This document shows, one piece after another, positions 1-29,767 of a stretch of DNA of 64,000 nucleotides (position 1 is the stretch's first letter; every line of letters begins with the position of its first letter). Location: the NCBI RefSeq assembly GCF_019186805.1, contig NZ_CP066783.1, forward strand, positions 549,501 to 613,500, in the 5' to 3' direction. The DNA comes from Comamonas fluminis (GTDB lineage Bacteria; Pseudomonadota; Gammaproteobacteria; Burkholderiales; Burkholderiaceae_C). The notes beneath the pieces were generated by a model, which had not been told where the DNA came from, did not search any database, and saw only the letters and a program-made list of their open reading frames with translations. Position numbers and translations under genes: made by a program.

Positions 1-898
1 TCCAAATATCCGAACCGAACGGCCACCGTTGCTGGAGCATGCAGGAGACGTGGAGCGCCTGCGGCTATTGCTCAAAGCGGGAGCCAACCCCAATGCAGTC
101 GATGCATCGGGTCGCACAGCCTTGCATCTTGCGGCGTTGGGTCAGATCGCCGCCGTGCGTTTGCTGCTGCAGAACATGGCTCCGGCTGGGGTGCGTGCTG
201 TGGATGTAGATGGCAATAGTGCGCTGGATATTGCGGCAGGCGCTGGTAGAGCGGATATCGTTTCACTGTTGCTGGCTCAAGGGTTGGAGCCGACTGCGAA
301 CGGCTGGTCCCGCGCGTTGAGTGGCGGGTGGTTGCAGACTGCGGCCATGTTGGAGCAAGCACACCATGGTGACAAATGGCCTTTGCCTGAGGCAAGTGAA
401 CTCGACGCGGCACGGCTTTACGGCTTGATTTTGCGTGGGGAAAAAACACAAGCGCGCCAGACTTACGAGCAATCCCAGAATAGTGCTTGTGGCCGACTGA
501 CACCCTTGATGCAGGCCGTTGAAATGCACAATGAAGAGGCGGTACGTGCCTTGCTTTCTTTGGGCATTGATGTGAACTTTCAGGCGCCTGCGGCGATTCG
601 CTCGGTGTCTTTCGTGCCCGCCATGTCATCGTCGGGGCGTGCAGTTCAGCAGTATGTGTTGCCACCGCCTTGTGCAGACAAGCCAGTGGCGGTCGTCAGC
701 AGCGGTAGCTCGGCCCTGATGCTGGCCGTTGCCAATCAGTCTTTGGGTATTGCGCAACTGCTGGTGGCTGCAGGGGCAGACCCTGCTCAGCGTAGCCACT
801 ATGGGGCTCAGTATTCGGCGCAGAGTCTCTGGCAAACCCAGACATTGCAAAACAAGAGCGATCATGCTGCTTGGAAGCGTGTTTTACGTCTGGCTTGA
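1..898 (+). CDS. Ankyrin-repeat protein, 5' end outside the window
   Basis: The reading frame is open from the first bases of the window (no stop upstream of the TTG at 29), so the gene starts outside and only the C-terminal 290 or so residues are visible. Several ankyrin repeats can be read: the motif pattern G-R-T-A-L-H-L-A-A near the start, then D-x-D-G-N-S-A-L-D-I-A-A, L-T-P-L-M-Q-A-V-E and S-A-L-M-L-A-V-A. Such repeats form a helical solenoid for protein-protein contact. No catalytic domain or membrane segment is visible in this part. The partner and the cellular role cannot be inferred from the sequence. The gene ends about 60 bases upstream of the dehydrogenase gene in the same direction. 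Confidence 0.8.
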   Translation, partial: PNIRTERPPLLEHAGDVERLRLLLKAGANPNAVDASGRTALHLAALGQIAAVRLLLQNMAPAGVRAVDVDGNSALDIAAGAGRADIVSLLLAQGLEPTANGWSRALSGGWLQTAAMLEQAHHGDKWPLPEASELDAARLYGLILRGEKTQARQTYEQSQNSACGRLTPLMQAVEMHNEEAVRALLSLGIDVNFQAPAAIRSVSFVPAMSSSGRAVQQYVLPPPCADKPVAVVSSGSSALMLAVANQSLGIAQLLVAAGADPAQRSHYGAQYSAQSLWQTQTLQNKSDHAAWKRVLRLA

Positions 899-959
899 TC
901 GCAAAGAGTTAATAACAAATGACCGCAGTGAGTCCTTCAAACCGTTAGGCTTCACACCT

Positions 960-1883
960 ATGAAAATCGCTTTTTGCTGTGAAGATACGCGGCCAGAACC
1001 CTGGCTCAAAGGTTTGAATGAGGCTCTGCCCGGTGCCGAGATCGCTATCTGGGAGCCGGGTGTGGCGCAGGCTGATTACGCCTTGGTCTGGGCGCCTCCC
1101 CAGCAGTTCATCGACGAGCAGGCTACGGGCCTGAAAGCCATGTTCAACATCGGCGCGGGGGTAGATGCACTGCTGCCGCTGACGATTCCTGCGGAGCTGC
1201 CCGTCTACCGCCTGGAAGACGCGGGCATGGCAGTGCAGATGGCCGAATATGTGGCGCAGGCGGTGATTCGCTTCTTCCGTGGGCTGGACCAGTACGAAGC
1301 CGACATGGCGGAGGGTGTGTGGCAGCACCAGCGCAATCCCAAGCGTGCAGACTATCCCGTGGGTGTGATGGGCCTGGGCAAGATGGGCGAGCGCGTGGCC
1401 AAGGCGCTGACGGTGTTTGATTTCAAGGTCAATGGCTGGAGCCGCTCGCTGCGCGACATGGATGGTGTGCAGTGCTTTGGCGGCATGGCGCAGCTGGACG
1501 ACTTCCTGCGCCAGAGCCGTATTCTGGTCAATCTGCTGCCGCTGCATGCCGAGACAGAAAATATCATCAACGCCCGCACGCTGGCGCTGCTGCAGCCCGG
1601 TGCTTATGTCATCAACGTGGGGCGTGGCGGTCATCTGGTGGATACGGACCTAATTGCGCAGATCGATTCCGGTCATGTCAGCGGCGCCATGCTGGACGTG
1701 TTTCGTGAGGAGCCTCTACCAGAGTCACACCCCTTCTGGAAGCAGCCAAAAATCATACTTACCCCCCATACTTCGGCCCGCACGCTGGCGGCAGACAGCA
1801 TTGCTCAGATCGTTGGCAAGGTCGCCGCCATGAGCCGAGGAGAGTCCGTCTCAGGTCGCGTTGATCTGAGAAAAGGCTATTGA
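960..1883 (+). CDS. D-2-hydroxyacid dehydrogenase, GhrA-like (glyoxylate/hydroxypyruvate reductase A)
   Basis: A 307-residue NAD(P)H-dependent oxidoreductase of the D-2-hydroxyacid dehydrogenase family; members related to GhrA reduce glyoxylate and hydroxypyruvate in the cytoplasm. The Rossmann nucleotide motif GLGKMG lies at residues 138-143. The usual catalytic triad can be read as Arg222 (in NVGRGG), Glu251 and His270 (in LTPHTSA). The frame is open further upstream, to 729, but that part overlaps the ankyrin gene; the ATG at 960 gives the family's usual N-terminus (MKIAFCCED) and length. No strong ribosome-binding site is visible. It lies 16 bases upstream of the HMG-CoA lyase gene, so the two are probably co-transcribed. 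The substrate is inferred from family only. Confidence 0.85.
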   Translation: MKIAFCCEDTRPEPWLKGLNEALPGAEIAIWEPGVAQADYALVWAPPQQFIDEQATGLKAMFNIGAGVDALLPLTIPAELPVYRLEDAGMAVQMAEYVAQAVIRFFRGLDQYEADMAEGVWQHQRNPKRADYPVGVMGLGKMGERVAKALTVFDFKVNGWSRSLRDMDGVQCFGGMAQLDDFLRQSRILVNLLPLHAETENIINARTLALLQPGAYVINVGRGGHLVDTDLIAQIDSGHVSGAMLDVFREEPLPESHPFWKQPKIILTPHTSARTLAADSIAQIVGKVAAMSRGESVSGRVDLRKGY

Positions 1884-3417: not shown

Positions 3418-4487
3418 GCCACATGCAGACGGCGGCGGATTTCATTGCAGCGCTTGATGTGGATGAGTCCGTCAAGGCCATGCAGCTGGAGTCGGTTTCT
3501 CGCGCACTCATGCCCTGGCTGCAGCAGGCACCTGCCGCAGAAGTCAATCAACTGGCGCAAGGGCTGCTTGCCGCCAATACGCGCTGGCATGTGACGCTGC
3601 ACGATACCCTGTCCTGGCTGGCCGATGAAGACTGGCCTGCGCTGGTGGATGCAGCGCTGCGCAGCGCACAGGCGCGCGCCAGCATGAGCGAGGCAGAGCG
3701 CACGGTGCTGGAGGCAGCCAGTTATCAACAGCCTGAACTCATCAAACCTTTGATAGCTCAGCTCGTAGACCTGGACTTCGATGTAGAGCTGTTTGAGACT
3801 GAAATGCAGGAGCAGACAGCGCAAGCTGCTATGCATTTGATATTTCCGCCGCGCTATCTGCAGCGTGAAATTGCATGGATTCCCCGGCACTGGCACCCCA
3901 GCTGGAATCTGCAGCCCGGCCCTGAGAGCTATTGCTTTGGAGGCCCGGGTGAGGGCCACTGCCAGCATTGTGGCAGGCAGTTGCAACACCTGATCAGCCT
4001 GCCTGCAAGCCAGGTGTTTGGCTGCGATCAGCCAGCAGGCAAAACCGTGCATCTGCAGCTGTGCCTGTCCTGCATGGAAAGCGGCGTGGGCGAGCTGCAT
4101 TACCGCCATGACTCAGAAGGTGTGGCGCATTGCCTGAATGCGGCGCAGGATGGGCAGTTGCAGGAGCCAGACATGGAGTGCGGCCCTTTGCGTGCTACCG
4201 AAGCTGCACTGTCTGCAACGCCCGCACGCTGGCAGCGTCAGGACTGGGGGCAGTCCAACGGCCGTGAGAATCTGTATCGCGTGGGTGGTACGCCTGCATG
4301 GATTCAATCACCATGGGTGCCAGTGTGTACCTGCTGCGGCCAGAGCATGCGTTTTGTGCTGCAGCTGGATTCTCAGATTCCGCAGGCCGATGGCGCAGTC
4401 GCCCATTACTGGGGCAGCGGCGGCATGCTTTACGGCTTTGCCTGCGCTCCTTGTGCTCACAGCGCCTACATCACTCAGTACACTTGA
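3414..4487 (+). CDS. Hypothetical protein with Cys-pair (zinc-ribbon-like) motifs
   Basis: 357 residues, translationally coupled to the upstream lipoprotein through an ATGA overlap. I do not recognise a named family with certainty. The N-terminal third is helical and Ala/Gln/Leu-rich. The middle contains C-x-x-C-G and C-L-S-C pairs. The C-terminus contains C-T-C-C-G followed by an L-Q-L-D-S stretch, G-G-M-L-Y-G-F and C-A-P-C, which would suit zinc-binding knuckles. The C-terminal pattern recalls DUF1963-type proteins, a weak resemblance. No signal peptide, so probably cytoplasmic. Bases about 3745-3845 of this gene resemble the intergenic inverted repeat family B; see findings. Confidence 0.7.
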   Translation: MSHMQTAADFIAALDVDESVKAMQLESVSRALMPWLQQAPAAEVNQLAQGLLAANTRWHVTLHDTLSWLADEDWPALVDAALRSAQARASMSEAERTVLEAASYQQPELIKPLIAQLVDLDFDVELFETEMQEQTAQAAMHLIFPPRYLQREIAWIPRHWHPSWNLQPGPESYCFGGPGEGHCQHCGRQLQHLISLPASQVFGCDQPAGKTVHLQLCLSCMESGVGELHYRHDSEGVAHCLNAAQDGQLQEPDMECGPLRATEAALSATPARWQRQDWGQSNGRENLYRVGGTPAWIQSPWVPVCTCCGQSMRFVLQLDSQIPQADGAVAHYWGSGGMLYGFACAPCAHSAYITQYT

Positions 4488-4527
4488 TGCGCAGGGCGCG
4501 GTGGGCGCTCTTTCTTCGAGAGTTTGT

Positions 4528-5025
4528 ATGTGTGGATCAGAACTTCACGCGCTGCCGGAAGGGGTGCAGCGCGTCAGCCGCTTTTTGCAGGATGCTGGCC
4601 ATCCCCTTGCGCCGCAGATGCTGGACGGTGCTGCCCGCACAGCGCAGGAAGCGGCAGATCAGCTCAGCATTCTGGTCGGCCAGGTTGCCAAGAGCATCAT
4701 TTTCAAGCGCAGGTTGGATGGCGCTGCCGTGCTGGTGGTGACATCAGGCGACAAGCGCGTGGATGAAAAAAAAGTGGCAGAGCTGGTGGGCAAGATTGGC
4801 CGTGCAGATGCGGACTTTGTCAAAGCCAGTACAGGCTTTTCGATTGGCGGAGTCAGCCCTGTGGCGCATGCCAGCAAGGTGGTGACGCTGATCGATCAGG
4901 AACTGCTGCGCTTTGATGTGGTGTGGGCAGCGGCAGGCCACCCGTATGGCGTGTTTCCCGCAACGCCTACCCAGTTGCAGGCGCTGACCGGCGCCCCATG
5001 GTCCGATGTGGTGGAGCAGACATGA
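4528..5025 (+). CDS. YbaK/EbsC-type aminoacyl-tRNA deacylase
   Basis: 165 residues, the usual size of free-standing YbaK/ProX domains, which hydrolyse mischarged tRNA (typically Cys- or Ala-tRNA-Pro) in the cytoplasm. Typical features are the conserved K-S-I-I-F-K strand, a V-L-V-V-T-S-G-D block, the lysine-rich D-E-K-K-V segment, the glycine loop FSIGGVSPV, and the C-terminal AAGHPYGVFPATP signature. The frame is open back to 4138 but overlaps the previous gene; ATG 4528 (MCGSELHALP) fits the family, and a GTG at 4501 in frame is an alternative. The stop overlaps the next start (ATGA), so the two genes are coupled. Substrate not determinable here. Confidence 0.85.
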   Translation: MCGSELHALPEGVQRVSRFLQDAGHPLAPQMLDGAARTAQEAADQLSILVGQVAKSIIFKRRLDGAAVLVVTSGDKRVDEKKVAELVGKIGRADADFVKASTGFSIGGVSPVAHASKVVTLIDQELLRFDVVWAAAGHPYGVFPATPTQLQALTGAPWSDVVEQT

Positions 5026-15287: not shown

Positions 15288-18200
15288 ATGACGCAGGGCC
15301 TGATCCGTATCCGTGGTGCTCGCCAGCACAATCTTCGCAATCTGGACATCGATATCCGCACTGGTGAGCTGACCGTCGTCACCGGCCCCAGTGGCTCGGG
15401 CAAGTCCAGTCTGGTGTTCGACACGCTGTATGCCGAAGGTCAGCGTCGTTATGTAGAGACTTTCTCCGCCTATGCACGCCAGTTCCTGGATCGCATGGAC
15501 AAACCGGCGGTGGACAAGGTCGAGGGCGTGCCTCCTGCCATTGCCATCGATCAGACCAACCCGGTGCGCAACTCGCGCTCCACCGTGGGCACGATGACGG
15601 AGATCAACGATCACCTCAAGCTGCTGTTTGCGCGCGCGGCCAAGTTGTTTGACAGCAAGACCGCCATGCCGGTGCATCACGACACCGCAGATTCGATCTA
15701 TGACGAGCTGACACGGCGCTGCGAGGCGGCGGGCGCCCCGCGCATTGCCATCACCTTTCCGGTGGAGTTGCCCGTCAACACCACGGCCGAAGAAGTCGAG
15801 CAATGGCTGTCTGCCAGCGGCTTTACCAAGGTACAGGCCGAGCGCGAAGTGGAGCGTGCTCAGCCTGTGGCGGATGAGGCCGCCAAGGGCAAGAAGAAAG
15901 CCAAGGCGGCGCCTGAGAAGATCAAGGTGCTGGATGTGATTGCAGATCGCTTTCGCCTGAGCAAGGCTGAGCGCTCGCGTGTCATGGAGGCGATCGAGGT
16001 AGGCCTCAAGCGCGGCAGCGGCAGGCTGACTGTGTATGTACTGCCTGAAAGCGGTGCAGAGAGCGCTGAACCTGAGCTGTGGAAGTTCTCGCAAGGTCTG
16101 CATTGCCCGGAAAGCAACCTCTCCTATCAGGAGCCGATTCCTTCGCTGTTTTCTTTCAACTCGGCGGTGGGGGCCTGTGATGCCTGCCGCGGCTTTGGTC
16201 GCGTGATCGGAGTGGATTGGGGGCTGGTGATTCCCAACGAAAAGCTCACGCTGCGCACCGGTGTTATCAAGCCGATTCAGACGCCGGCCTGGAAGGAGAT
16301 TCAGGACGACCTGATGCGCCACTCCGAAGCCGAGGGCATTCCACGCGACACGGCCTGGTCCAAGCTGACCAAGGAGCAAAAGGACTGGGTCATTGAAGGC
16401 TCGCCCAACTGGAATGGCAAGTGGAGCCAGACCTGGTATGGCATTCGCCGCTTTTTCGAGTACCTCGAAAGCAAGGCTTACAAGATGCATATCCGGGTGC
16501 TGCTGTCCAAATACCGCAGCTACACCGAATGCCCGACTTGTGGCGGGGCTCGTCTCAAGACCGAAAGCCTGCTCTGGCGCATTAGCGGCAAGCAGGCCGC
16601 GGACGCCGTGCTGCCACCCGGCGATGAAAGTGGCCGATACCAGCGCTTTATGCCGCAGGGCGTGGGCTGGAGCCGTGAGCAGCTGGACGGCTTGCCGGGC
16701 CTGTGTTTGCACGATTTGATGCGCTTGCCCATCACTCGATTGCGCGAGTTTTTTGCGCAACTGGCCCCCAGTGCGGCGGACAAGAACGATGGTGAAGCAC
16801 AGGCCCTCAAGATGCTGCACGCAGAGGTCATGACGCGGCTGCAGTATCTGTGCGACGTGGGTATTGGCTACCTCACGCTGGACCGCCAGAGCCGCACACT
16901 GAGCGGCGGCGAGGTGCAGCGTATCAACCTGACCACTGCCCTTGGGACCTCGCTGGTCAACACTTTGTTTGTGCTCGACGAGCCATCGATTGGCCTGCAC
17001 CCGCGCGATATGGAGCGCATTACCGAAGCCATGCAGCGCCTGCGCGATGCGGGCAATACGCTGGTGGTGGTGGAGCATGACCCCGCCGTGATGTTTGCCG
17101 CCGACCGCATGATCGACATGGGGCCTGGACCCGGCGCACGCGGTGGTCAGATTGTGTTTGACGGCACACCCGAGGATTTGCGCAAGGCCGACACCTTGAC
17201 GGGCGCCTATCTGGGCGGGCGCAAGCAGGTGGGCTTTGGCCTCAAGCGCATGGTGACGGAATCCACGCCGCGCCTGATTCTGGAAGGTGCACGTGAGCAC
17301 AATCTGCGCGATATCAGCGTGGACTTTCCGCTGCAGCGCCTGGTCACCATCACCGGGGTTTCAGGCTCAGGCAAATCCACGCTGATTCAGGATGTGCTGG
17401 TGCCCGCGCTGATGCGCCATTTCGGCAAGCCCACCGATGCGGCGGGCGCATTCGAGCGCCTGCTGGGCGCCGACCATCTGGCCGATGTGATGTTTGTGGA
17501 CCAGTCGCCCATCGGCAAGACGGCGCGCTCCAACCCGGTCAGTTATGTGGGGGCCTGGGATGCGCTGCGTGAGCTGTTTGCGGTGGCGCCGCTGTCGCGC
17601 CAGCGCGGCTACACCGCTGCCAAGTTCAGCTTCAACAGCGGTGATGGCCGTTGCCCCACTTGCGGCGGCTCGGGCTTCGAGCATGTGGAGATGCAGTTTC
17701 TCTCGGACGTCTATCTGCGCTGCCCCGATTGCAATGGCACACGTTATCGCCCCGAGATTCTGGAAGTGAAGATCGAGCGCAACGGCCAGTCGCTGAATGT
17801 GGCCGATGTGCTGGAGCTCACTGTCGCCGAAGCCGCGCTGCTGTTTGCGCAGGATCGCGATGTGATCCGCGCGCTGCAGCCCATCGTCGATGTGGGGCTG
17901 GAATATGTGAAGCTGGGCCAACCCGTGCCCACGCTGTCGGGTGGAGAGGCACAGCGCCTCAAACTCGCAGGTTTTCTGGCAGAGGCGGCCAAGGCGCAGT
18001 CCAAGAGCAAACAATCGCTGGCCAAAAAAGGCACGCTGTTCCTGTTCGACGAGCCTACGACGGGCCTGCACTTTGAAGACATTGCCAAGCTCATGCGTGC
18101 GCTGCGCAAGCTGCTCGAAGCCGGACATTCGCTGATCGTGATTGAGCACAATCTCGACGTGATTCGCGCCAGCGACTGGCTGATCGATCTGGGCCCAGAA

Positions 18201-21200
18201 GGCGGTGATGGCGGTGGACTGGTGGTGGCCGAAGGCTCGCCCGAAGATGTGCGCAAGGTCGATGCCTCCTATACCGCGCAGGCCTTGCGCGAATACGATC
18301 TGGCCATGGGCGTGGGTGGCGAAGCGGTGCGTGAAGTGGCCCCCATGCTCTATAAACCAGAGCGCAAGGCCAAGGCGCAGCAGGTTCAAGCGGGCAAAAA
18401 TGCCATTGAAATCGTCAACGCCAAAGAGCACAACCTCAAGTCGCTGACGGTGGATGTGCCGCGTGGCAAGTTCAATGTGGTGACGGGGGTCTCGGGCTCG
18501 GGCAAGTCCACGCTGGCATTCGACATTCTGTTCAATGAGGGCCAGCGCCGCTACCTCGAATCGCTCAATGCCTATGCGCGGAGCATCGTGCAGCCTGCGG
18601 GCCGCCCTGAGGTGGATGCGGTCTATGGCATACCGCCCACGGTGGCGATTGAGCAGCGCCTGTCGCGTGGTGGTCGCAAATCTACGGTGGGCACAACCAC
18701 TGAGGTCTGGCATTTTCTGCGCCTGCTGTATGTGAAGCTGGGCGTGCAGCACTGTGTTCACGACGATGCCATCGTGCAGCCGCAGACGGAAGAAAGCATT
18801 GCCGCGCAGCTGATGACGAGTTTCCGTGGCCAGACTATTGGCCTGCTGAGCCCGCTGGTCGTCAACCGCAAGGGCGTCTATACCGAGCTGGCCGACTGGG
18901 CGCGCCCCAAGGGCTACACGCATTTGCGCGTGGATGGCGAGTTCTTGCCAACCACGGGCTTTCCGCGCATTGACCGCTTCAAGGAGCACACGATTGAGCT
19001 GCCCGTGGCCAGCGTGACGGTCACGGCGGCCAACGAAAAAGAACTGCGCGGCCATCTGCGTCAGGCGCTGGAGATTGGCAAGGGCGTGCTGCATGTGCTG
19101 TCCGGTATCGAGAATCTGGCCGAGGCCATGCAAGGCGGCCAGAGCACAGCGGGTATCGGTGCGCTGCAGGTGTTCTCCACCCAGCGCGCTTGCCCGGTCT
19201 GCGCCACCAGCTATGCAGAGCTGGATCCGCGATTGTTCAGCTACAACAGCAAGCATGGCTGGTGCCCCGACTGCGTGGGCACGGGCGTGAAGCTGACCAA
19301 GGACCAGCGCAAGGTGTATGACGACACCTTGCTTGCAGACGATAACCGGGGCCGTGAAGTGAAGTTCGAGGGCCAGGAGGTGGAAGACCTGGCGGAAGTT
19401 GTTTGTCCCAAGTGTCAGGGCACACGTTTGAACCCCGTGGCGCGGGCCGTGAAGTTCCATGACGAAGCGATTACCGATATTGCGCAACTGTCGGTGAGCG
19501 ATGTGCGCCGCTGGGTGCAAGGGCTGGACCTGTCGGGCCGCGAAGCCGATATTGCCCGTGATCTGATTCCCGAGATCCAAAGCCGTCTCGAATTCCTTGA
19601 AGAAGTCGGCCTCAACTATCTGACGCTGGACCGCGGAGCGCCCACGCTCAGCGGTGGCGAGGCACAACGTATTCGCCTGGCAGCGCAACTGGGCAGCAAT
19701 CTGCAGGGCGTGTGCTATGTGCTGGATGAACCCACGATTGGCCTGCATGCGCGTGACAACCAGATTCTGCTCAATGCGCTGCACAAGCTGGGTGACAAGG
19801 GCAACACGCTGGTGGTGGTGGAGCACGACGAGGATACGATTCGCCGCGCTGACCATGTGATCGATATCGGCCCCAGCGCTGGTATTCGCGGTGGCCGTCT
19901 GGTCGCCGAGGGTACGGTTCAGGACATCATGGAGGCCAAAGATTCGGTCACGGGCCGCTATCTGCTGCATGCCATGCGCCATCCCTTCAAGCCACGACTG
20001 TGGGTTGGGGAAGGGGAACCCCCTGCTGCACCGGCTGCTATCAATGCAGAAGCTGCTACCGTTGTTGAATCAGCCGTTGCAGAGAAAAAAGTCAGTAAGG
20101 CCAAGAAAAGCAAAGCGCAGGCAGCTACTGAAACGGTAGCAACGGAAGAGAGCAAGGCCTTGCACTGGCTCAAGGTGCTGGGCGCCAATATGCACAACCT
20201 GCAGGGCGTGGATGCACGCGTGCCGCTCAAGCGCCTGGTGGCGGTGACGGGCGTTTCCGGCTCAGGCAAATCCACGCTGGCGCGTGATGTGCTGCTGACC
20301 AATGTGGCAGCCTGGGTGCAGCAGCGATCGACCAAGGCCGGGCGCGATGCCATGGACGAAGGAAAGTCCCCCGCGCTGGTGGGCTGCAAGGGTATCAAGG
20401 GCTTTGAGACGGTGGACCGGGTGCTGGAAGTGGACCAGACGCCCATTGGCAAAACGCCGCGCTCCTGCCCTGCGACTTACATCGGCTTCTGGGACACGAT
20501 TCGCAAGCTGTTTGCCGAAACGCTGGAGGCCAAGGCCCGTGGCTATGCGGCGGGGCGCTTCAGCTTCAACACTGGCGAAGGCCGTTGCCCGGCCTGTGAA
20601 GGCCAGGGCGTGCGCACCATTGAAATGAGCTTTCTGCCCGATGTGAAAGTGCCTTGCGAGACTTGTCACGGCGCGCGCTTCAACCCCGAGACGCTGGCCG
20701 TCACCTGGCGCGGCAAAAGCATTGGCGATGTGCTGCAGATGGAAGTCGATGAGGCGGTGGAATTCTTTGCCTCCATGCCTTCGATTGCCCATCCGCTGCA
20801 GTTGCTCAAGGACGTGGGCCTCGGTTATCTGACGCTGGGCCAGCCGTCGCCCACGCTGTCGGGTGGCGAGGCCCAGCGCATCAAGCTGGTGACCGAGCTG
20901 ACCAAGGTGCGCGACGAGGTGGGGCGGCGCGGGCAGAAGGCGCCACACACGCTGTATGTGCTGGACGAGCCCACCGTCGGTCTGCACATGGCCGATGTGG
21001 ACAAGCTCATCCATGTGCTGCATCGTCTGGTCGATGGTGGCCACAGCGTGGTGGTCATTGAGCATGATCTGGATGTGATTGCCGAAGCCGACTGGATCAT
21101 CGACCTGGGCCCCGAAGGCGGCAAGGACGGCGGCCGGATTGTGGCCACGGGAACGCCTGAAGAGCTGGTGGCGATCGGCACGCACACCGGCAAGGCGCTG

Positions 21201-21224
21201 GCGCCCGTGCTGGCGCGCGCATAG
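15288..21224 (+). CDS. uvrA: Double-length UvrA (tandem fusion of two UvrA proteins)
   Basis: 1978 residues, twice the normal 940-1000. UvrA is the DNA-damage sensor of nucleotide excision repair, an ABC ATPase that dimerises and loads UvrB. Four Walker A motifs start at residues 33, 690, 1067 and 1655, and four LSGGE signatures at 538, 883, 1454 and 1857, so there are two complete UvrA units: about 1-1030 and about 1037-1978. Each unit keeps an insertion in the place of the UvrB-binding domain and the C-terminal zinc module. The first zinc module of unit 1 is degenerate: C273-P-E-S where unit 2 has C-P-V-C. Lys/Ala-rich stretches lie inside unit 1 (about 195-210) and before the last ATPase domain (about 1575-1620). 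A canonical UvrA is probably encoded elsewhere. Confidence 0.93.
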
Positions 21225-21294: not shown

Positions 21295-21331
21295 ATGGTT
21301 TTCAGAGGCTCTAAATTCCTCGGAAAACCAT
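21295..21331. promoter_or_regulatory. Inverted repeat upstream of the NRPS gene
   Basis: ATGGTTTTC (21295-21303) and GAAAACCAT (21323-21331) form a 9-bp inverted repeat about 85-120 bases before the NRPS start. There is no T run after it, so it is more likely an operator or leader structure than a terminator. Confidence 0.35.
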
Positions 21332-21415
21332 AGGCTCGCTCAATAATGACGGTCAGAAAAGAGCGGCGCCACCAGGTTCGGAAGCACGGTTGCTCCGGGT
21401 AAGTCCGCTGACCCC

Positions 21416-24400
21416 ATGTCCGACACTATTGTTTTGCGCGGGCCAGAACGGCCAGACCTTTTGCGCCAGGAGGTGCTGGCCGATATTTTTGAGGCCACGG
21501 CTCAGGCTCATCCGGCGCAGATTGCGCTGATGGAAGGTCAAGGGGAGACTTTAAGGCAGCGTAGTTATGCACAGCTCGATGCCGATGCCAGCCGCGCTGC
21601 CCACAGGCTGATAGAGGCTGGCATACGCCCCGGCGATATGGTGGGGCTATGGCTGCCACGTGGTATCGAGCTGCTGACCCTGCAGCTGGCCATTGCCAAG
21701 ACGGGTGCGGCCTGGTTGCCGTTTGATGCCGAAACGCCGCTGGAGCGCATTGCCACCTGTCTTGAAGATGCATCGGCCAAAGCGCTATTGATAGCGCAGC
21801 AGCATGCGCAGTCTGTACAAGCGCAGAAGGACATTTCTGCACAGACTTTTACGGAAGCTGATCTGCTGGCTGACCTGCCTGCAGATACCGTGCTGCATCA
21901 GCGTCAGGGCGCATTGCCCGAGCATCCGGCCTATGTGATCTACACCAGCGGCTCAACGGGCAAGCCCAAGGGCATTGCCATTACGCAGGGCAGCATCTGC
22001 CACTTTCTGCGCAGTGAAAATGCACGGCTGGGTGTGCGCCAGAGCGACAAGGTTTATCAGGGTTTCTCGGTGGCCTTTGATATGTCCTTCGAGGAAATCT
22101 GGATCAGCTATCTGGTGGGTGCCACGCTGTGGCTGGCTCCGCGCGAGATTGCGGGTGACCCCGAGGCCTTGCCCCGCGCACTGATGGAGCAGCAGGTCAC
22201 GGTATTGCATGCGGTGCCTACATTGCTGGCGCTGTTTGCCCAGGACGTTCCGAACCTGCGCCTGATCAATCTGGGTGGCGAAATGTGCCCGGAATCGCTG
22301 GTGGCGCGCTGGGCCAATGCATCGCGTCAGATGTTCAACACCTATGGCCCCACCGAGGCCACGGTGTCTGCCAGTCTGGCAGAGCTCAAGGCGGGCGAGC
22401 CGGTGACGATTGGTACGCCGCTGCCCAATTACAGCCTGGTCGTGGTGCAGGTGATAGAGGCTGACAGCTTTCCTGCAGGCACGGCACCCCAACTGGTGGG
22501 GCTGCCCCAGGGCGAGGTGGGTGAGCTGTGCATTACCGGGCCTGGCGTGGCCGCGGGTTATCTGGGCCGGCCGGAACTGACGGCTGAAAAATTTCTGCTC
22601 AACCCCTGGCCCAGCGGGCCGCATGACACACGCCTTTATCGCACGGGCGATTTGGCCCGTATCGATGAGCATGGGCAGATTCATTGTCTGGGCCGGGCCG
22701 ACGATCAGATCAAAATTCGCGGCTTTCGCGTAGAGCTGGGCGAGATCGAAGCTGTGCTGGCTCAGCAGCCCGGCGTGGGTACCACGGCGGTACTGCTGCG
22801 CAAGGATGACGGCATGGATCAACTGGTGGCCTTTTATGTGCCTGCCGATGAGCCTTGCACCGTAAACCAGTTGCGTGCGGCACTGGCGGAGCGCCTGCCG
22901 CCTTATATGGTGCCTGCGCGATTTGAGGCGCTGACCGAGATGCCGCGCCTGACATCGGGCAAGATCGACCGCAAGGCGCTCAAGGCCATGGAGCTGGCGC
23001 AGGCAACTGGGCCAACCGACTCGGATGTGGCGGAAACAGAAGCAGAGCAGGTGCTGTTCGCGGCGCTGGCCCAGATTTTTCCGGGGCAGGCGATTCACCG
23101 TGGCCAGGATTTCTTTAGCGACCTGGGCGGCCACTCGCTGTTCGCGGCACGGCTGACATCGCTGCTGCGCGCAGACCCGCGTTTTGCTCAGGCGACGGTC
23201 AGCACGGTCTATCAGCAGCGCAAAGTGGGCTTGATTGCCGAGGCCTTGCAGGCCGTCATGACCGTGGGTGGCTCTACAGAGCAGCAGCGCCCCTTCCGCA
23301 TTCATTCGGCGTGGCGGCGCTGGCGCTGCGGTGCGGCGCAGTCTGTGGCCATTCCACTGCTGGTCTTGATCAAGATGGCGCAGTGGCTGGCGCCGTTTTT
23401 CACCTATCACTTCTTCACGGGTGACGAAAACGATTCCGTGGCCTTTGCGGTGGCCATGTCGGTGCTGGCCTTTGCCGTCGCCACCGTGGCAGAGTTTGGC
23501 ATTGCCTGGGCTGGCAAATGGCTGGTGGCTGGACGATTGAAGCCGGGGCGCTATCCGCTCTGGGGTGTGACGTATTTCCGCTGGTGGTTCGCCGACCGTC
23601 TGGTTGAAGCGGTGCCCATTGCCATGATTACCGGCTCATCGCTGCATCCGGTGTGGCTGCGTGCGCTGGGGGCCAGGGTTGGGCGTGAAACCAATCTGGG
23701 TTCGATGACAGTGCGCGCCCCTGATCTGCTGCGTATCGGCGACGGCGCCAGCATTGGCAACGCCGTGGCGCTGGAAAACGCACGCGTTGAAGGCGGTGAG
23801 TTGATACTCGGTCGCATCGATATTGGCAACGAGGTCTGCATCGGCTCGTATGTAGTGATCGAAGGCAACACCCGGCTGGAAGACTGGGCGCATCTGGATG
23901 GGCAATCCGCGCTGGCAGATGGCTCGGTGCAGCCTGCACGCAGCATCTGGGCGGGCTCGCCTGCGCGTGCGAAAGGGGTTTTTGACCCTGCTACTTTGCC
24001 GCAAAGACAAGTGGTCAGCCCACTGCGTCATGCGCTGGAAATGCTGGTGTTTGTCTTTGGTGGCCTGCTGGTGGCGACCTTGTTCTTCATGCCTGTGTTT
24101 CCGACATTCATGTTGATTGACACGCTGGACATCGAAGCCATTTCCGTGCGCCCTTTGTTGGAGCAGGGTGTGGTCGATGCGGGCGGAGCCTTCATCCTGC
24201 GTCTGCTCAAATTCTTCATGCTGGCGCTGCCATCCAGTCTGGTGCTGGTGGCCTGCACGGTACTGGTCGCAGCCCTGGTTCGCTATCTGTTTCTGCCCAG
24301 AACCCGGGCCGGTACCTGGTCTGTGCACAGCGGGCGCTATCTGGGCAAGTGGATGGTCAACCAGATTCAGGAGGCCAGCTTGGGCACGCTGCACGGCATT

Positions 24401-25486
24401 TATGCCACGGTGTATTCATCGACCTGGTACCGACTGCTGGGGGCCAAGGTGGGCAAGCAGACCGAGCTGTCCACCGCTCTGGGTGTGGTGCCAGACATGC
24501 TGACACTGGGAGACGAATGCTTTGTGGCCGATGCCGTGATGCTGGGTGACGAACATATCGATGGAGGCTGGATGACGGTGCAGCCCACGGTGGTTTCGCG
24601 CCGCAGTTTCATTGGCAATGGTGCTTATGTTCCTGATGGGTCCACCATTCCCGAAAACGTGCTGATTGGCGTCATGACGGCAGTGCCGCGCAATGCCGAT
24701 ATGAAAGATGGCGATACCTGGCTGGGCTCTCCGGCCATCAATCTGGCCGCACGAGAGGTGGCGCAGGGCTACCCTGAGCACCTGACGTTTGCGCCATCGC
24801 CATGGCGGCGTCTGGGGCGTGGTCTGGTCGAGGCTGCACGCATCGCCGTACCCCATGCCGTGGTCATTGCCGTCGGTTATGCGATTGTTCTGGACGCCAT
24901 GCCGCTGGCATCCGAAGGGCGCTGGGGCGCTGTGGTTCTGGATCTGGCTGTGGCTGGCATCATTTTTGGCTTGGTTGCTTTCCTGGTCGTGGCCTTGTTC
25001 AAATGGCTGGCTGTCAGGCGCTACGCGAAGACGGCGGTTCCCATGTGGACACCGTTTGTCTGGCTCTCCGAGGCGGCAACCAATATGTATGAAGGTTTGG
25101 CCATTCCGAACTTTCTGCGCTATTTGCGCGGCACGCCATGGCTGCCGCTGGCCATGAATCTGATGGGCAGCAAGATCGCTCCCAGTGTCTATCTGGACAC
25201 CACAGACATCACCGAGCATGACTGCGTGACCATTGGTGAGCACAGCGAGCTCAATGCGCTGTGCTGCCCGCAGACACACTTGTTTGAAGATCGTGTGATG
25301 AAGATCGACGAAGTCATCATCGGCAAGCGCGTCACCATGGGCGCGCGCTGCACGGTGCTCTATAGCGCCAGTGTGGGCGACGATGTGCAACTGGGCCCGC
25401 TGACGCTGGTGATGAAGGGCGAAACCCTGCCGGCCCGCACGCGCTGGGAAGGCACGCCCGCTGCACCCGTGCGCCAGCCAGTCTGA
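21416..25486 (+). CDS. Pls/PosA-like membrane-bound non-ribosomal peptide synthetase
   Basis: 1356 residues. Order: adenylation domain (about 1-520, with YTSGSTGKPKG, NTYGPTEAT, YRTGDLA and G-R-x-D-D-Q-I-K-I-R-G), a carrier domain with phosphopantetheine Ser574 (LGGHS), then three blocks of two predicted membrane helices, each block followed by a hexapeptide-repeat, left-handed beta-helix-like domain (about 745-860, 1000-1110 and 1225-1356). There is no condensation or thioesterase domain. This is the layout of epsilon-poly-L-lysine synthetase (Pls), which joins one amino acid repeatedly through its side-chain amine, and of the related PosA group. The product here is unknown; a cationic homopolymer or short isopeptide is the obvious guess. 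The next gene, a phosphopantetheinyl transferase, starts on the last base of its stop codon. Confidence 0.9.
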   Translation: MSDTIVLRGPERPDLLRQEVLADIFEATAQAHPAQIALMEGQGETLRQRSYAQLDADASRAAHRLIEAGIRPGDMVGLWLPRGIELLTLQLAIAKTGAAWLPFDAETPLERIATCLEDASAKALLIAQQHAQSVQAQKDISAQTFTEADLLADLPADTVLHQRQGALPEHPAYVIYTSGSTGKPKGIAITQGSICHFLRSENARLGVRQSDKVYQGFSVAFDMSFEEIWISYLVGATLWLAPREIAGDPEALPRALMEQQVTVLHAVPTLLALFAQDVPNLRLINLGGEMCPESLVARWANASRQMFNTYGPTEATVSASLAELKAGEPVTIGTPLPNYSLVVVQVIEADSFPAGTAPQLVGLPQGEVGELCITGPGVAAGYLGRPELTAEKFLLNPWPSGPHDTRLYRTGDLARIDEHGQIHCLGRADDQIKIRGFRVELGEIEAVLAQQPGVGTTAVLLRKDDGMDQLVAFYVPADEPCTVNQLRAALAERLPPYMVPARFEALTEMPRLTSGKIDRKALKAMELAQATGPTDSDVAETEAEQVLFAALAQIFPGQAIHRGQDFFSDLGGHSLFAARLTSLLRADPRFAQATVSTVYQQRKVGLIAEALQAVMTVGGSTEQQRPFRIHSAWRRWRCGAAQSVAIPLLVLIKMAQWLAPFFTYHFFTGDENDSVAFAVAMSVLAFAVATVAEFGIAWAGKWLVAGRLKPGRYPLWGVTYFRWWFADRLVEAVPIAMITGSSLHPVWLRALGARVGRETNLGSMTVRAPDLLRIGDGASIGNAVALENARVEGGELILGRIDIGNEVCIGSYVVIEGNTRLEDWAHLDGQSALADGSVQPARSIWAGSPARAKGVFDPATLPQRQVVSPLRHALEMLVFVFGGLLVATLFFMPVFPTFMLIDTLDIEAISVRPLLEQGVVDAGGAFILRLLKFFMLALPSSLVLVACTVLVAALVRYLFLPRTRAGTWSVHSGRYLGKWMVNQIQEASLGTLHGIYATVYSSTWYRLLGAKVGKQTELSTALGVVPDMLTLGDECFVADAVMLGDEHIDGGWMTVQPTVVSRRSFIGNGAYVPDGSTIPENVLIGVMTAVPRNADMKDGDTWLGSPAINLAAREVAQGYPEHLTFAPSPWRRLGRGLVEAARIAVPHAVVIAVGYAIVLDAMPLASEGRWGAVVLDLAVAGIIFGLVAFLVVALFKWLAVRRYAKTAVPMWTPFVWLSEAATNMYEGLAIPNFLRYLRGTPWLPLAMNLMGSKIAPSVYLDTTDITEHDCVTIGEHSELNALCCPQTHLFEDRVMKIDEVIIGKRVTMGARCTVLYSASVGDDVQLGPLTLVMKGETLPARTRWEGTPAAPVRQPV

Positions 25487-26109
25487 TGCAGATTCAGCCC
25501 TGCTGCCTGGATGGAGCTGCTGGAGGCAGGCCGCAGCTGCGGCTGGTGCAGGGGCTGGATGAGGGCGACAGGGAGGTTGCCCGGCTGCAGGCCAGGGCTG
25601 CGCTGGTTTGCTGTCTGGCGGCAGAACTGGGCTGTGCAGAGGCGGAGCTGAAAATCAGCAATCTGCGCGGCCAGGCTCCGCAAGTTCAGCTGCGTGGGCA
25701 GTTGCTGAAATCCTTGCATTGCTCTATCAGCCATGCGCAGGGAATGGCGCTGCTGGCCTGGCACTTTGGGGCGGCGGTTGGTGTAGATATTCAGGCGGTG
25801 GACAGACATGTGTCCCGACCGGAACTGCAAGCGGTAGCGCAACTTTTTTTTGCGCCTGAAGTGGCTGAAGTCCTTTCAGATATTGCGGTAGATGCTCTTT
25901 TTTTTGAAGCGTTTGCGCAGGCCTGGGCAGGGCAGGAGGCGCGGCTTAAATGCGCGGGGCTGGGCCTGGTGGAGTGGAGTGGCGAGCTGGAGGCAGGTCT
26001 GGCGGGTATTCACAGCGCATCAGTGCCACTGCCCATGTCTTTCACTGCCCTCGTCTGCAGGGCAGCTGTGGCCTGGCAAGACAAGGTCGGCGAAGACAGT
26101 GCTACCTGA
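25486..26109 (+). CDS. 4'-phosphopantetheinyl transferase (Sfp-like)
   Basis: 207 residues. It attaches the phosphopantetheine arm of CoA to carrier-domain serines, here most likely Ser574 of the NRPS encoded just upstream (stop and start overlap as TGATG). Motifs: S-I-S-H-A-Q-G, G-V-D-I-Q with metal-binding Asp101, and W-A-G-Q-E-A-R-L-K with Glu151 and Lys155. The usual Glu after G-V-D-I is Gln here, and K-E-A is Q-E-A; both are tolerated in parts of the family. N-terminal homology is weak. It ends 19 bases from a convergent gene with no visible terminator. Confidence 0.87.
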   Translation: MQIQPCCLDGAAGGRPQLRLVQGLDEGDREVARLQARAALVCCLAAELGCAEAELKISNLRGQAPQVQLRGQLLKSLHCSISHAQGMALLAWHFGAAVGVDIQAVDRHVSRPELQAVAQLFFAPEVAEVLSDIAVDALFFEAFAQAWAGQEARLKCAGLGLVEWSGELEAGLAGIHSASVPLPMSFTALVCRAAVAWQDKVGEDSAT

Positions 26110-26764: not shown

Positions 26765-28051
26765 TTACTGGAAACCCAGCGTATGCGGCAGCCAGGTTGA
26801 CAGCGCGGGGATGAAGGTCAGCATGCACAGCACGATGAAGTGGGCCAGCAGGAACAGCGGCATCTCGCGCGTCAGGTCGGTAATCGATACGCGTGTGGCG
26901 ACCGAAGTCACGAACAGCAGGCCACCCACTGGCGGTGTAATCATGCCCAGCGTCAGGTTGACGATCACCACCATGGCAAAGTGCGTGGGGTCGATGCCCA
27001 GAGTGAAGGCAATCGGTGCAAGGATGGGCACCAGAATCATCACGCCAGGCAGTGGCTCCATGAAGATGCCGAAGACCAGCAGCAGAATGTTCACGGCGAT
27101 CAGGAACATGGTGGGCGACAGGTCCCAGCTCACGATCAGTTCAGACAGATACTGCGGAATGCCTTCCACCGTCAGCACCCAGGCAAAGGCTGCCGAGGTG
27201 GCCATGACCAGCAGCACCGAGGCAGTCAGCATGGCTGAGCGGGCCAGAATGCCTGGAAGGGCAGACCATTGCAGCGTGCGGTAAATCCATTTACCGCAGA
27301 TCAGCGCATAGAACACCGCCACGACGGAAGCCTCTGTCGGCGTGAAGATACCGAAGCGGATGCCGACCACGATCAGCACAATCAGCATCAGTGCGGGGAT
27401 GGCCTTGAAGCTGTTGACCCACATCTCGCGGGCGCTGGGGCGTGGCTCGGTGCTGCGGTAGTCGCGCTTTTTGCAAACCCACCAGTTGACCGCAGCCATG
27501 GCCAGTGCAATCAGAATGCCGGGGATAAAACCGGCCATGAACAGCCCGCCCACGGACACGTTTTCATCCTGCAGCGCATAGATGATCATGCTGACTGAGG
27601 GCGGAATGATGGGGCCGACGATGGCCGTGCTGGCTGTCAGCGCCGCCGCATAAGGGCGGCCGTAGCCAGCCTTGTCCATCATCTTGACCATCATGGAGCC
27701 GGGGCCGGCGGCATCGGCCAGAGCCGAGCCAGAAATGCCCGAGAACAAGGTCAGCGACAGCACGTTGGCATAGCCCAGACCGCCACGCAGATGACCGACA
27801 AACTGCGCCGCAAAGCGCAGCAGCACAGCGGTGAGTGCGCCGCCTGACATCAGCTCGGCGGCCAGAATGAAAAACGGCACGGCCATCAGCGGAAAGCTGT
27901 CGATGCCCGTGAACATTTCCTTGAAAACGATCAGCTGTGGATAACGTCCACCGACAAAGACCGCCAGCGCCGCCGAAATGGCCAGCGCAAACGCCACCGG
28001 AAAGCCCAGCGTGAGCAGGACGATGATGGCAACAAATAAAGTGATACCCAT
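26765..28051 (-). CDS. TRAP transporter large permease DctM
   Basis: 428 residues, about 12 membrane helices: the ion-coupled channel subunit of a tripartite ATP-independent periplasmic transporter. Recognised by M-A-V-P-F-F-I-L-A-A-E-L-M, G-S-M-M-V-K-M-M and I-I-P-P-S-V-S-M-I-I-Y, all typical of DctM. Last gene of the operon dctP-dctQ-dctM, 20 bases after dctQ. Confidence 0.95.
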   Translation of the reverse strand: MGITLFVAIIVLLTLGFPVAFALAISAALAVFVGGRYPQLIVFKEMFTGIDSFPLMAVPFFILAAELMSGGALTAVLLRFAAQFVGHLRGGLGYANVLSLTLFSGISGSALADAAGPGSMMVKMMDKAGYGRPYAAALTASTAIVGPIIPPSVSMIIYALQDENVSVGGLFMAGFIPGILIALAMAAVNWWVCKKRDYRSTEPRPSAREMWVNSFKAIPALMLIVLIVVGIRFGIFTPTEASVVAVFYALICGKWIYRTLQWSALPGILARSAMLTASVLLVMATSAAFAWVLTVEGIPQYLSELIVSWDLSPTMFLIAVNILLLVFGIFMEPLPGVMILVPILAPIAFTLGIDPTHFAMVVIVNLTLGMITPPVGGLLFVTSVATRVSITDLTREMPLFLLAHFIVLCMLTFIPALSTWLPHTLGFQ

Positions 28052-28071
28052 GATGTTTAACCTGCTAGCTC

Positions 28072-28644
28072 TTAGATGGACGCTGCGGCGTCTGCGTCCA
28101 TTTCGTCGGATTCAGCAAAGCTGCCGGCGGTGATGTAGCCGCGCGCAATGAACAGCAGGTGAATCAGCATCAGCACAAAGCCCACAGGCATGGCGCCGTA
28201 GATATAGGAGATCGGGATGTCCGTGGCTGCAGTGGTCTGAAAGCGCGTGGCGTAAACGTACTGCGACGCGGTCACGGTCATCACGACAAAGAACACAGCC
28301 AGACTGACCACGACAATGCCGCGAATGATCTGTGCGCTGCGTGTGCTGACGGTGCGGTGCAGATTGTCGATGGCCACATGGCCACCAAAGCGCAGCACCA
28401 GGCCAGCGCCTAAAAAGGTGACCCAGATCATCATGTGGCGGGCTACTTCTTCAGCCCAGACAATGGAGTCGCCCGTGGTGTAGCGCAGCACGACGTTGGC
28501 AAAAACGATGCAGGCCATGGCCAGCAACAGCAAGATCAGCAGCCAGCGATTGCAGGCTACGAGAATGCGTTCGATACGATCAAGCATAGGAGTGGGGGTG
28601 AGCAGTCGCGGCAGTGAAGTCGCTGCCGACGTGGACTGCGTCAC
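28072..28644 (-). CDS. TRAP transporter small permease DctQ
   Basis: 190 residues with four predicted membrane helices, the DctQ subunit that docks with DctM. The family pattern R-Y-x-x-x-x-S-I-V-W-A-E-E-V-A-R is present. The N-terminus may start at the Met corresponding to 28587 instead of 28644; the first 19 residues are not typical of the family. The C-terminal tail is acidic. Confidence 0.9.
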   Translation of the reverse strand: MTQSTSAATSLPRLLTPTPMLDRIERILVACNRWLLILLLLAMACIVFANVVLRYTTGDSIVWAEEVARHMMIWVTFLGAGLVLRFGGHVAIDNLHRTVSTRSAQIIRGIVVVSLAVFFVVMTVTASQYVYATRFQTTAATDIPISYIYGAMPVGFVLMLIHLLFIARGYITAGSFAESDEMDADAAASI

Positions 28645-28780
28645 GAAGTTGGGGCTGCTTCATCATTGGCATGAATTGGCGCAAGTCCATTCGTGCTGAC
28701 CACAGCCGGGCAAAGCGGGCTTTGCCAGTGAGATGAAAAACTAGCAGGCCCGCTGCAGGGGGCGCAGGCCTGCTGCGGGA

Positions 28781-29767
28781 TTACTTGACGGCGGTGATGG
28801 AGTCCAGTGTCTTCTGGCCAAACTTTTTGGCGTATTCCTTGTACGCAGGCTCCAGTGCAGCGCGGAATGCGGCCTGGTCAATCTTCTCCACAACCTTCAT
28901 GCCATTGGCTTTGGCTTCTTCGACGCCCTTCTTTTCCACGTTGTCCACAAAAGCGCGCGAAGCCAGAGCGCCCTTCTTGGCAGCTTCGGTGAAAGCGGTC
29001 TTCTGGGCTGCGTTCAGCGAACCCCAGAACGAGGGAGAGACGATCAGCGCCATGGGAGCGTAGACGTGAGCGGTGAGTGTCAGGTGCTTTTGCACTTGCC
29101 ACAGCTTGGCCGAGCTCAGCACGGAGATGGGGTTCTCCTGACCGTCAATCGTGCCCTGCTGCAGCGCGCCGATCACTTCGGGCCAGGACATGGGAGTGGG
29201 CGATGCACCCAGCGTGCGGAAGGCCGTGATGTGCACGGGGTTCTCGGTCACGCGGATTTTCAGGCCCTTGAGGTCAGCCACGCTGGTGACAGCGTGCTTG
29301 TTGTTGGTCAGGTGGCGAAAACCTTGCTCACCCCAGGCCAGCGCAACCAGGCCGCGCTTCTGGAACTTGGCCAGCAGATCCTGGCCAAATGCGCCATCCA
29401 TCACGGCACGAGCGTGATGGGTGTCACGGAACAGGAAGGGAATATCGACCACGCCCACATCGGGCACGAAGTTGCTCAGCGCGCCAGTGGAAACGATGGC
29501 GGCTTCCACGGTGCCCAGTTGCAGGCCTTCGATCAGTTCACGCTCGCCGCCCAGTGCGGACGCGGGGAACTGCTTGAACTTGTAGGCGCCGTTGGTGCCT
29601 TTTTCCACGCCTTCAGCCCAGGCGTTAGCAGCTGCGCCGTAGTGCGAATTGACCGCCAGCGCATAGCCAATCTTGACTTCCTTGCCTTGGGAAAAAGCGG
29701 TACCTGCGGTCAGTGCGGCGGTAGCTGCCACAGCGGAGGCGACGAAAGTGCGGCGAATCATGCGCAT
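28781..29767 (-). CDS. TRAP transporter solute-binding protein DctP
   Basis: 328 residues with a cleavable signal peptide (MRMIRRTFVASAV then an Ala-rich core), exported to the periplasm. DctP-family signatures: L-G-G-E-R-E-L-I-E-G-L-Q-L-G near residue 70, and L-K-G-L-K-I-R-V with the conserved Arg that clamps carboxylate ligands. The ligand is probably an organic acid, but the exact one cannot be read. First gene of the three-gene operon; no regulator or two-component system adjoins it. Confidence 0.93.
   Translation of the reverse strand: MRMIRRTFVASAVAATAALTAGTAFSQGKEVKIGYALAVNSHYGAAANAWAEGVEKGTNGAYKFKQFPASALGGERELIEGLQLGTVEAAIVSTGALSNFVPDVGVVDIPFLFRDTHHARAVMDGAFGQDLLAKFQKRGLVALAWGEQGFRHLTNNKHAVTSVADLKGLKIRVTENPVHITAFRTLGASPTPMSWPEVIGALQQGTIDGQENPISVLSSAKLWQVQKHLTLTAHVYAPMALIVSPSFWGSLNAAQKTAFTEAAKKGALASRAFVDNVEKKGVEEAKANGMKVVEKIDQAAFRAALEPAYKEYAKKFGQKTLDSITAVK

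Follow-up and report, generated by a model that had tools for sequence, protein, structure and literature searches.

A two-gene locus in Comamonas fluminis, joining a Pls/PosA family synthetase to a divergent phosphopantetheinyl transferase, with a predicted delta-poly-L-ornithine product

The window, that is, the whole 64,000-nucleotide stretch analysed here (positions 549501-613500 of contig 2 of the 4.9-Mb Comamonas fluminis genome), contains an intact open reading frame of 1356 codons, here called posA, followed on the same strand by a 207-codon gene for a phosphopantetheinyl transferase (PPTase). As an earlier interpretation made from the letters of the DNA (the sequence-only reading) had noted, the two genes overlap, the posA stop and the PPTase start sharing one base (TGATG). 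The features of the locus are the following:

21340..21347 (+): TCAATAAT, a possible posA -10 box, retained in close relatives
21354..21415 (+): non-coding leader of about 60 nt, its sequence conserved among same-clade Comamonas relatives
21416..25486 (+): posA-like gene, 1356 aa, with adenylation, carrier and C-terminal membrane polymerisation domains (domain and profile searches)
21488..22987 (+): adenylation domain, about residues 25-524 (TIGR01733, 396 bits; PF00501 and PF13193)
22079..22369 (+): pocket residues D222, M223, E226, H265, N285, G287, T309, V317 and S318, the same letters as in the PosA code DMEHNGTVSK
23060..23254 (+): carrier (thiolation) domain, about residues 549-613 (PF00550, under cut-off)
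23321..24001 (+): block 1, membrane pair and hexapeptide helix, residues 636-862 as cut by hand
23336..25462 (+): Pls/PosA polymerisation domain at the C terminus, residues 641-1349 (TIGR02353)
24011..24751 (+): block 2, membrane pair and hexapeptide helix, residues 866-1112 as cut by hand
24809..25477 (+): block 3, membrane pair and hexapeptide helix, residues 1132-1354 as cut by hand
25253..25303 (+): motif N1280...Q1286-T-H1288-x-x-E1291-D-R-x-x-K1296 of block 3 (65- and 31-sequence alignments)
25486..26109 (+): Sfp-type PPTase of the posA-linked subfamily, 207 aa (PF01648)

Immediately 5' of posA and in the same orientation lies the gene for a double-length UvrA of 1978 aa with two UvrA interaction domains (15288-21224), and a 1978-aa ORF, probably the same UvrA, is found upstream also in L002, L003 and L029. 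Downstream, on the opposite strand, are TRAP transporter genes (26765-29767) identified by NCBIfam as DctM and DctP, with a 190-aa ORF between them. The posA leader shows 83% mean column identity over 16 aligned Comamonas loci and its 15-base core occurs once in the genome; a sigma-70 scan upstream of posA returned no promoter. Both a leader peptide and a leader RNA were considered for this stretch and dropped, the former because its short arginine-rich frame is interrupted by an in-frame stop in L151 and lacks an ATG in L029 (by eye), the latter because the fold of the window leader is no better than that of shuffled sequences (z +1.06); the six Rfam matches up to E = 10 all scored far under their gathering thresholds. 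An inverted repeat between uvrA and posA (21297-21329; 12-base arms with one mismatch, 9-nt loop) was considered as a conserved operator and rejected: in none of 22 relatives, some of which share a genome with another, was it the best inverted repeat in the 260 nt upstream of posA, a different one being present in 7 and none by that search in 15.

Pfam assigns to the posA protein one AMP-binding domain, one AMP-binding_C domain and hexapeptide repeats, and returns no condensation or thioesterase domain up to E = 1. The carrier scores below the Pfam cut-off (13.2 bits against 20.8), with the phosphopantetheine site at S574 in the motif GGHSL (codon 23135-23137, forward strand). This position is Ser in all 218 rows of the family alignment, a non-deduplicated set comprising the window, 80 fetched loci, the listed homologues longer than 1250 aa and the genus loci, with some genomes present more than once. 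TIGR02353 matches residues 641-1349 at 765.1 bits against a cut-off of 423.1, and hydropathy together with block-to-block profiles reveals membrane helices in three pairs and three tandem domains. At the level of sequence, the protein is thus confirmed as a Pls/PosA family synthetase, a family name that some Comamonas relatives already carry at NCBI. This domain order bears out the sequence-only reading, which had described a single adenylation and a single carrier domain without condensation or thioesterase domains. Neither of the two outcomes that would have spoken against that reading was observed: the C-terminal half does fall in the Pls/PosA group, and the frame is open through the carrier domain. 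That reading had further likened the layout to epsilon-poly-lysine synthetase; the family assignment stands, but the closest characterised enzyme is PosA of Acinetobacter instead. In comparisons with five loci, dN/dS amounts to 0.05-0.10 for posA and 0.29-0.33 for the PPTase gene, so that both genes look to be under purifying selection; two of the five loci gave identical values and therefore probably represent one genome.

The C-terminal half had been read as three membrane-plus-hexapeptide blocks, and the detailed comparisons agree: membrane-like segments fall into three groups by hydropathy (residues 644-700, 872-962 and 1140-1202), and hhalign between the hand-cut blocks gives probabilities of 99.9, 99.9 and 99.6 over 208, 206 and 214 aligned columns, nearly their full length. 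By these profile comparisons, the three blocks are homologous to each other, and the AlphaFold description of the PosA C-terminal domain in PMC10522769 agrees with the three-block match. H1288 is the sole invariant histidine of the C-terminal half in a 65-sequence alignment that includes only 4 distant rows (<50%; 24-42% identity), and block 3 also holds the invariant residues N1280, Q1286, E1291, K1296, K1334, G1335 and E1336. Invariant residues occur in blocks 1 and 2 too, for instance, W716, W724, R1006 and N1068; in block 1, H665 comes close to invariance, being kept in at least 90% of the same alignment. The QTHxxEDR motif is absent where blocks 1 and 2 align with it, and the window protein has, in its block 2, a histidine one column off, where the alignment has no majority residue. 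The location of the only invariant histidine in block 3 suggests one active site in a pseudo-threefold domain; the C-terminal half may therefore be a fused pseudo-trimer with one working site near H1288, a proposal derived from residue conservation. PDB sequence matches of this half are weak hexapeptide-repeat ones, the best at E 1e-4. The tandem domains have reportedly been studied by mutagenesis before (Kito 2013).

In the PDB sequence search, the best match of the posA protein is the PosA adenylation domain 8g95 (E 1e-151), and the epsilon-poly-L-lysine synthase domain 7wew comes after it at 3.8e-79. The pocket residues, together with the tenth, K516, which lies outside 22079..22369, form the specificity code DMEHNGTVSK, identical to that of PosA at 10/10 positions with a constant numbering offset of +5. 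The same code is found in 210 of the 218 aligned family rows, the other 8 having Ser for Thr at PosA position 304, and, among ten further relatives, in L081, L174, L180 and L181; the broken relative L184 has DAESIGTVVK and L187 is too short for a code. More distant relatives carry other codes (L182, DLEDIGSVVK; L183, DFECISAVTK; L185, DAESIGTVIK; L186, DAESIGTIIK), and hence the match to DMEHNGTVSK is not general to the whole family. According to PMC10522769, PosA of Acinetobacter baumannii, for which this code is given, makes soluble delta-poly-L-ornithine of 7-12 units in vitro, and its mutants D217A and E221A have no activity; both corresponding residues are retained in the window protein. 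Because the ten specificity residues are identical to those of PosA, from which alone the biochemistry of this code is known, ornithine is the predicted monomer of the window enzyme. Substrate, linkage, chain length (about 7-12) and beta-helix fold would all be carried over from PosA, the fold being a model in PMC10522769 as well.

The linked PPTase scores 30 bits against PF01648 (cut-off 25) and, at 207 aa, has the size of Sfp-type enzymes (about 200 aa or more). Across 61 aligned rows of linked PPTases, R29, R33, G99, D101, W147, E151, A152 and E163 never vary and K155 is kept in 60, all of these except A152 and E163 being points of likeness to Sfp and AASDHPPT. The linked enzymes differ from Sfp at position 150, the K of KEA in the W-x-x-KEA-x-x-K motif of Sfp-type PPTases: it is never Lys in the 61 rows (Gln in the window, with E151 and K155 kept), and this Lys is present in the three solved PPTase chains compared. 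They differ further at position 103, presumably the site of the second acid (second metal ligand) in Sfp, which is not acidic in any of the 61 rows. In profile comparisons, the window PPTase matches human AASDHPPT at 42.9 bits and Sfp at 23 bits; AASDHPPT also has Met at the position 103 site but keeps the KEA lysine. The linked PPTase is a distinct, divergent subfamily tied to posA. Tyr replaces the histidine of SxSH in 6 of the 61 rows; one Comamonas clade with this replacement (L005, L006, L007) is missed by PF01648, and in 6 of its 8 genomes the single PF01648 match is AcpS-like.

Among 53 Comamonas genomes, 31 match the posA protein at 1e-50 and 26 carry posA, the other five (G006, G061, G062, G073 and G075) having been excluded as matching only via ordinary NRPS adenylation domains. 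Identity is at least 80% in 24 of the 26, including G072, where the gene is in two contig pieces, and 59% in G026; in G015, posA is represented by one piece on each of two contigs, the middle being unseen. A profile made from linked PPTases (A2), which includes eight Comamonas rows and was applied to related genomes with first-look candidates scored in part, detects a linked PPTase at 125 bits or more in 26/26 posA-bearing and 0/27 posA-less genomes, always adjacent and on the same strand. Weaker A2 matches (40-62 bits), as expected from general PPTases, occur in 5 of the 27 posA-less genomes; a second, weaker A2 match is present in 4 of the 26 posA genomes (G007, G026, G067 and G072), and G016 has a third PF01648 match. 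The one-base overlap recurs in 12 of the 23 further genus loci compared; all 8 loci of the 80-82% clade lack it.

Beyond the genus, posA-type loci are found in neighbouring Burkholderiales and some Pseudomonas. TIGR02353 exceeds its cut-off in 19 of the 61 genomes that the search for relatives covered, and in 8 of 369 drawn from the class (the own genome being counted in both), and the protein search yielded 2917 homologues among 8000 candidates scored, with 120 matches listed. By profile, a linked PPTase lies downstream of posA on the same strand in 60 of the 80 fetched loci. Two of the other 20 (L004, L043) end at a contig edge; the remaining 18 have sequence available, and their genomes all have a PPTase candidate longer than AcpS elsewhere, found through A2 in 16 (best matches 35-70 bits) and through further PF01648 matches in G451 and G455. 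Since posA of A. baumannii is described as a single-gene operon (PMC10522769), unlike the window gene with a PPTase overlapping its stop, the pairing is not universal. No other partner gene shared as widely as the PPTase emerged from ORF clustering over the 80 loci, in which ORF calling was greedy and took in antisense ORFs in some loci: the PPTase cluster comprises 44 loci by this crude calling, against 60 by profile, and the next neighbour cluster, an example of which reads like a LysR regulator, comprises 15 loci in scattered places. The tight pairing of the synthetase with a distinct helper PPTase is the less expected part of the locus.

Taken together, the locus is very probably a two-gene module for delta-poly-L-ornithine, namely, short isopeptide-linked ornithine chains. 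The PPTase would load the phosphopantetheine arm onto S574 of the synthetase and so serve the posA carrier; the Sfp and CoA treatment that PosA received before use (PMC10522769) fits the need for a PPTase. The adenylation domain would activate L-ornithine, its alpha-amine held by D222, its side-chain amine by E226, T309 and S318 and its length set by M223, and then load it onto the arm. The membrane-embedded C-terminal half, pictured as three homologous membrane-plus-left-handed-beta-helix blocks, would join the monomers one by one via the side-chain amine, with polymerisation most likely occurring at a single active site near H1288 in block 3, and the chain would exit without a thioesterase; the role of H1288 and the release or export of the polymer are steps that we infer. 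A more far-reaching proposal, to which we would give somewhat less than an even chance, is that the two genes form an obligate module: a PPTase both dedicated and reduced, devoid of the KEA lysine and of the metal-ligand acid, would have co-evolved with a single client carrier, whose polymerisation domain would consist of left-handed beta-helix acyltransferases fused into a pseudo-trimer with one of three sites kept, centred on H1288 of block 3.

An alternative is that the enzyme is of the Pls/PosA type but uses another diamino acid in the cell, such as L-lysine, D-ornithine or diaminobutyrate. PosA adenylates D-Orn at about half the efficiency of L-Orn and L-Lys weakly, and specificity codes are described as degenerate; yet PosA polymerised L-Orn and gave no lysine polymer, and its M218, tied to ornithine length, is among the ten code residues shared with the window, where lysine enzymes have Ala and the PDAP synthetase has Phe (all from PMC10522769), which makes this substrate switch unlikely. 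Slightly more room is left for ornithine chains that stay very short or are bound to an envelope component instead of forming a free polymer, an idea favoured by the membrane-bound synthetase without a thioesterase and by the O-antigen ligase match next to the distant L185 homologue with its different code. However, the named flanking genes encode UvrA and the TRAP transporter and none is for attachment (one 169-aa flanking ORF has no Pfam match), and PosA released its soluble oligomers in vitro (PMC10522769), so that we regard this possibility, too, as rather improbable.

It would be quite surprising if the PPTase served another carrier and stood next to posA by accident. Its divergence from PPTases of known structure might be taken that way, but it is confined to the same 26 of 53 Comamonas genomes as posA and is always adjacent, and 1 of 35 TIGR01733 matches in the genome, that of the posA adenylation domain, is over the NRPS cut-off. 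PF01648 has two matches in the genome, the linked PPTase and an AcpS-sized frame of 131 aa, and these counts lend more support to the impression of the sequence-only reading that the locus is self-sufficient. Least credible of all is a decaying, inactive locus: the Pfam scores of the carrier and the PPTase are weak, whereas the frames are unbroken, the pocket residues and S574 are kept, and the dN/dS values given above speak against decay. The two-gene ornithine module is, in our view, the reading best suited to these observations.

Among characterised systems, PosA (PDB 8G95-8G98) shares with the window protein the domain order, the complete code, the membrane C-terminal domain and the lack of condensation and thioesterase domains, and its C-terminal domain is reported to be 20% identical to that of Pls (PMC10522769). 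Pls, which makes epsilon-poly-L-lysine, is described as having the same architecture, with six membrane helices in three pairs and three tandem domains. The PDAP synthetase of Streptomyces albulus PD-1 has the same single-module layout and three similar tandem domains, and comes with its own diaminopropionate supply enzymes (PMC4668381). The locus adds a well-supported Comamonas member to a known enzyme family, one whose product can be predicted with confidence. The literature covered, in which subscription papers were largely outside the scope, offered no report of a posA-linked PPTase or of Comamonas poly-ornithine, and the words 'Comamonas' and 'PPTase' do not appear in the main text of PMC10522769, though Sfp was used there.

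PMC10522769 describes one bacterial enzyme that makes delta-poly-ornithine in vitro; the predicted chemistry would be common in Comamonas and extend to the neighbouring Burkholderiales and some Pseudomonas. As most of the 80 loci bring their own activating enzyme, the two-gene cassette could be tried in E. coli, and the block 3 motif would reduce isopeptide bond formation without a condensation domain to a few point mutants. The locus gains interest from the strictness with which posA and the PPTase go together in Comamonas, and from an active-site proposal that can be tested.

Other genes adjoin some of the relatives. In L183, a 441-aa ORF (3656-4981) without a Pfam match at 0.001 follows the homologue with code DFECISAVTK. 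In L185, a gene matching Wzy_C (O-antigen ligase; 105-1547, reverse strand) comes directly after the distant Pls/PosA homologue and might serve to anchor a polymer at the cell surface. Ottowia-like loci have a phospholipase A1 gene between posA and the PPTase gene (L011, 12078-13469); PF02253 was tested on L011 only, and genes of the same ORF cluster are found in L012 and L013.
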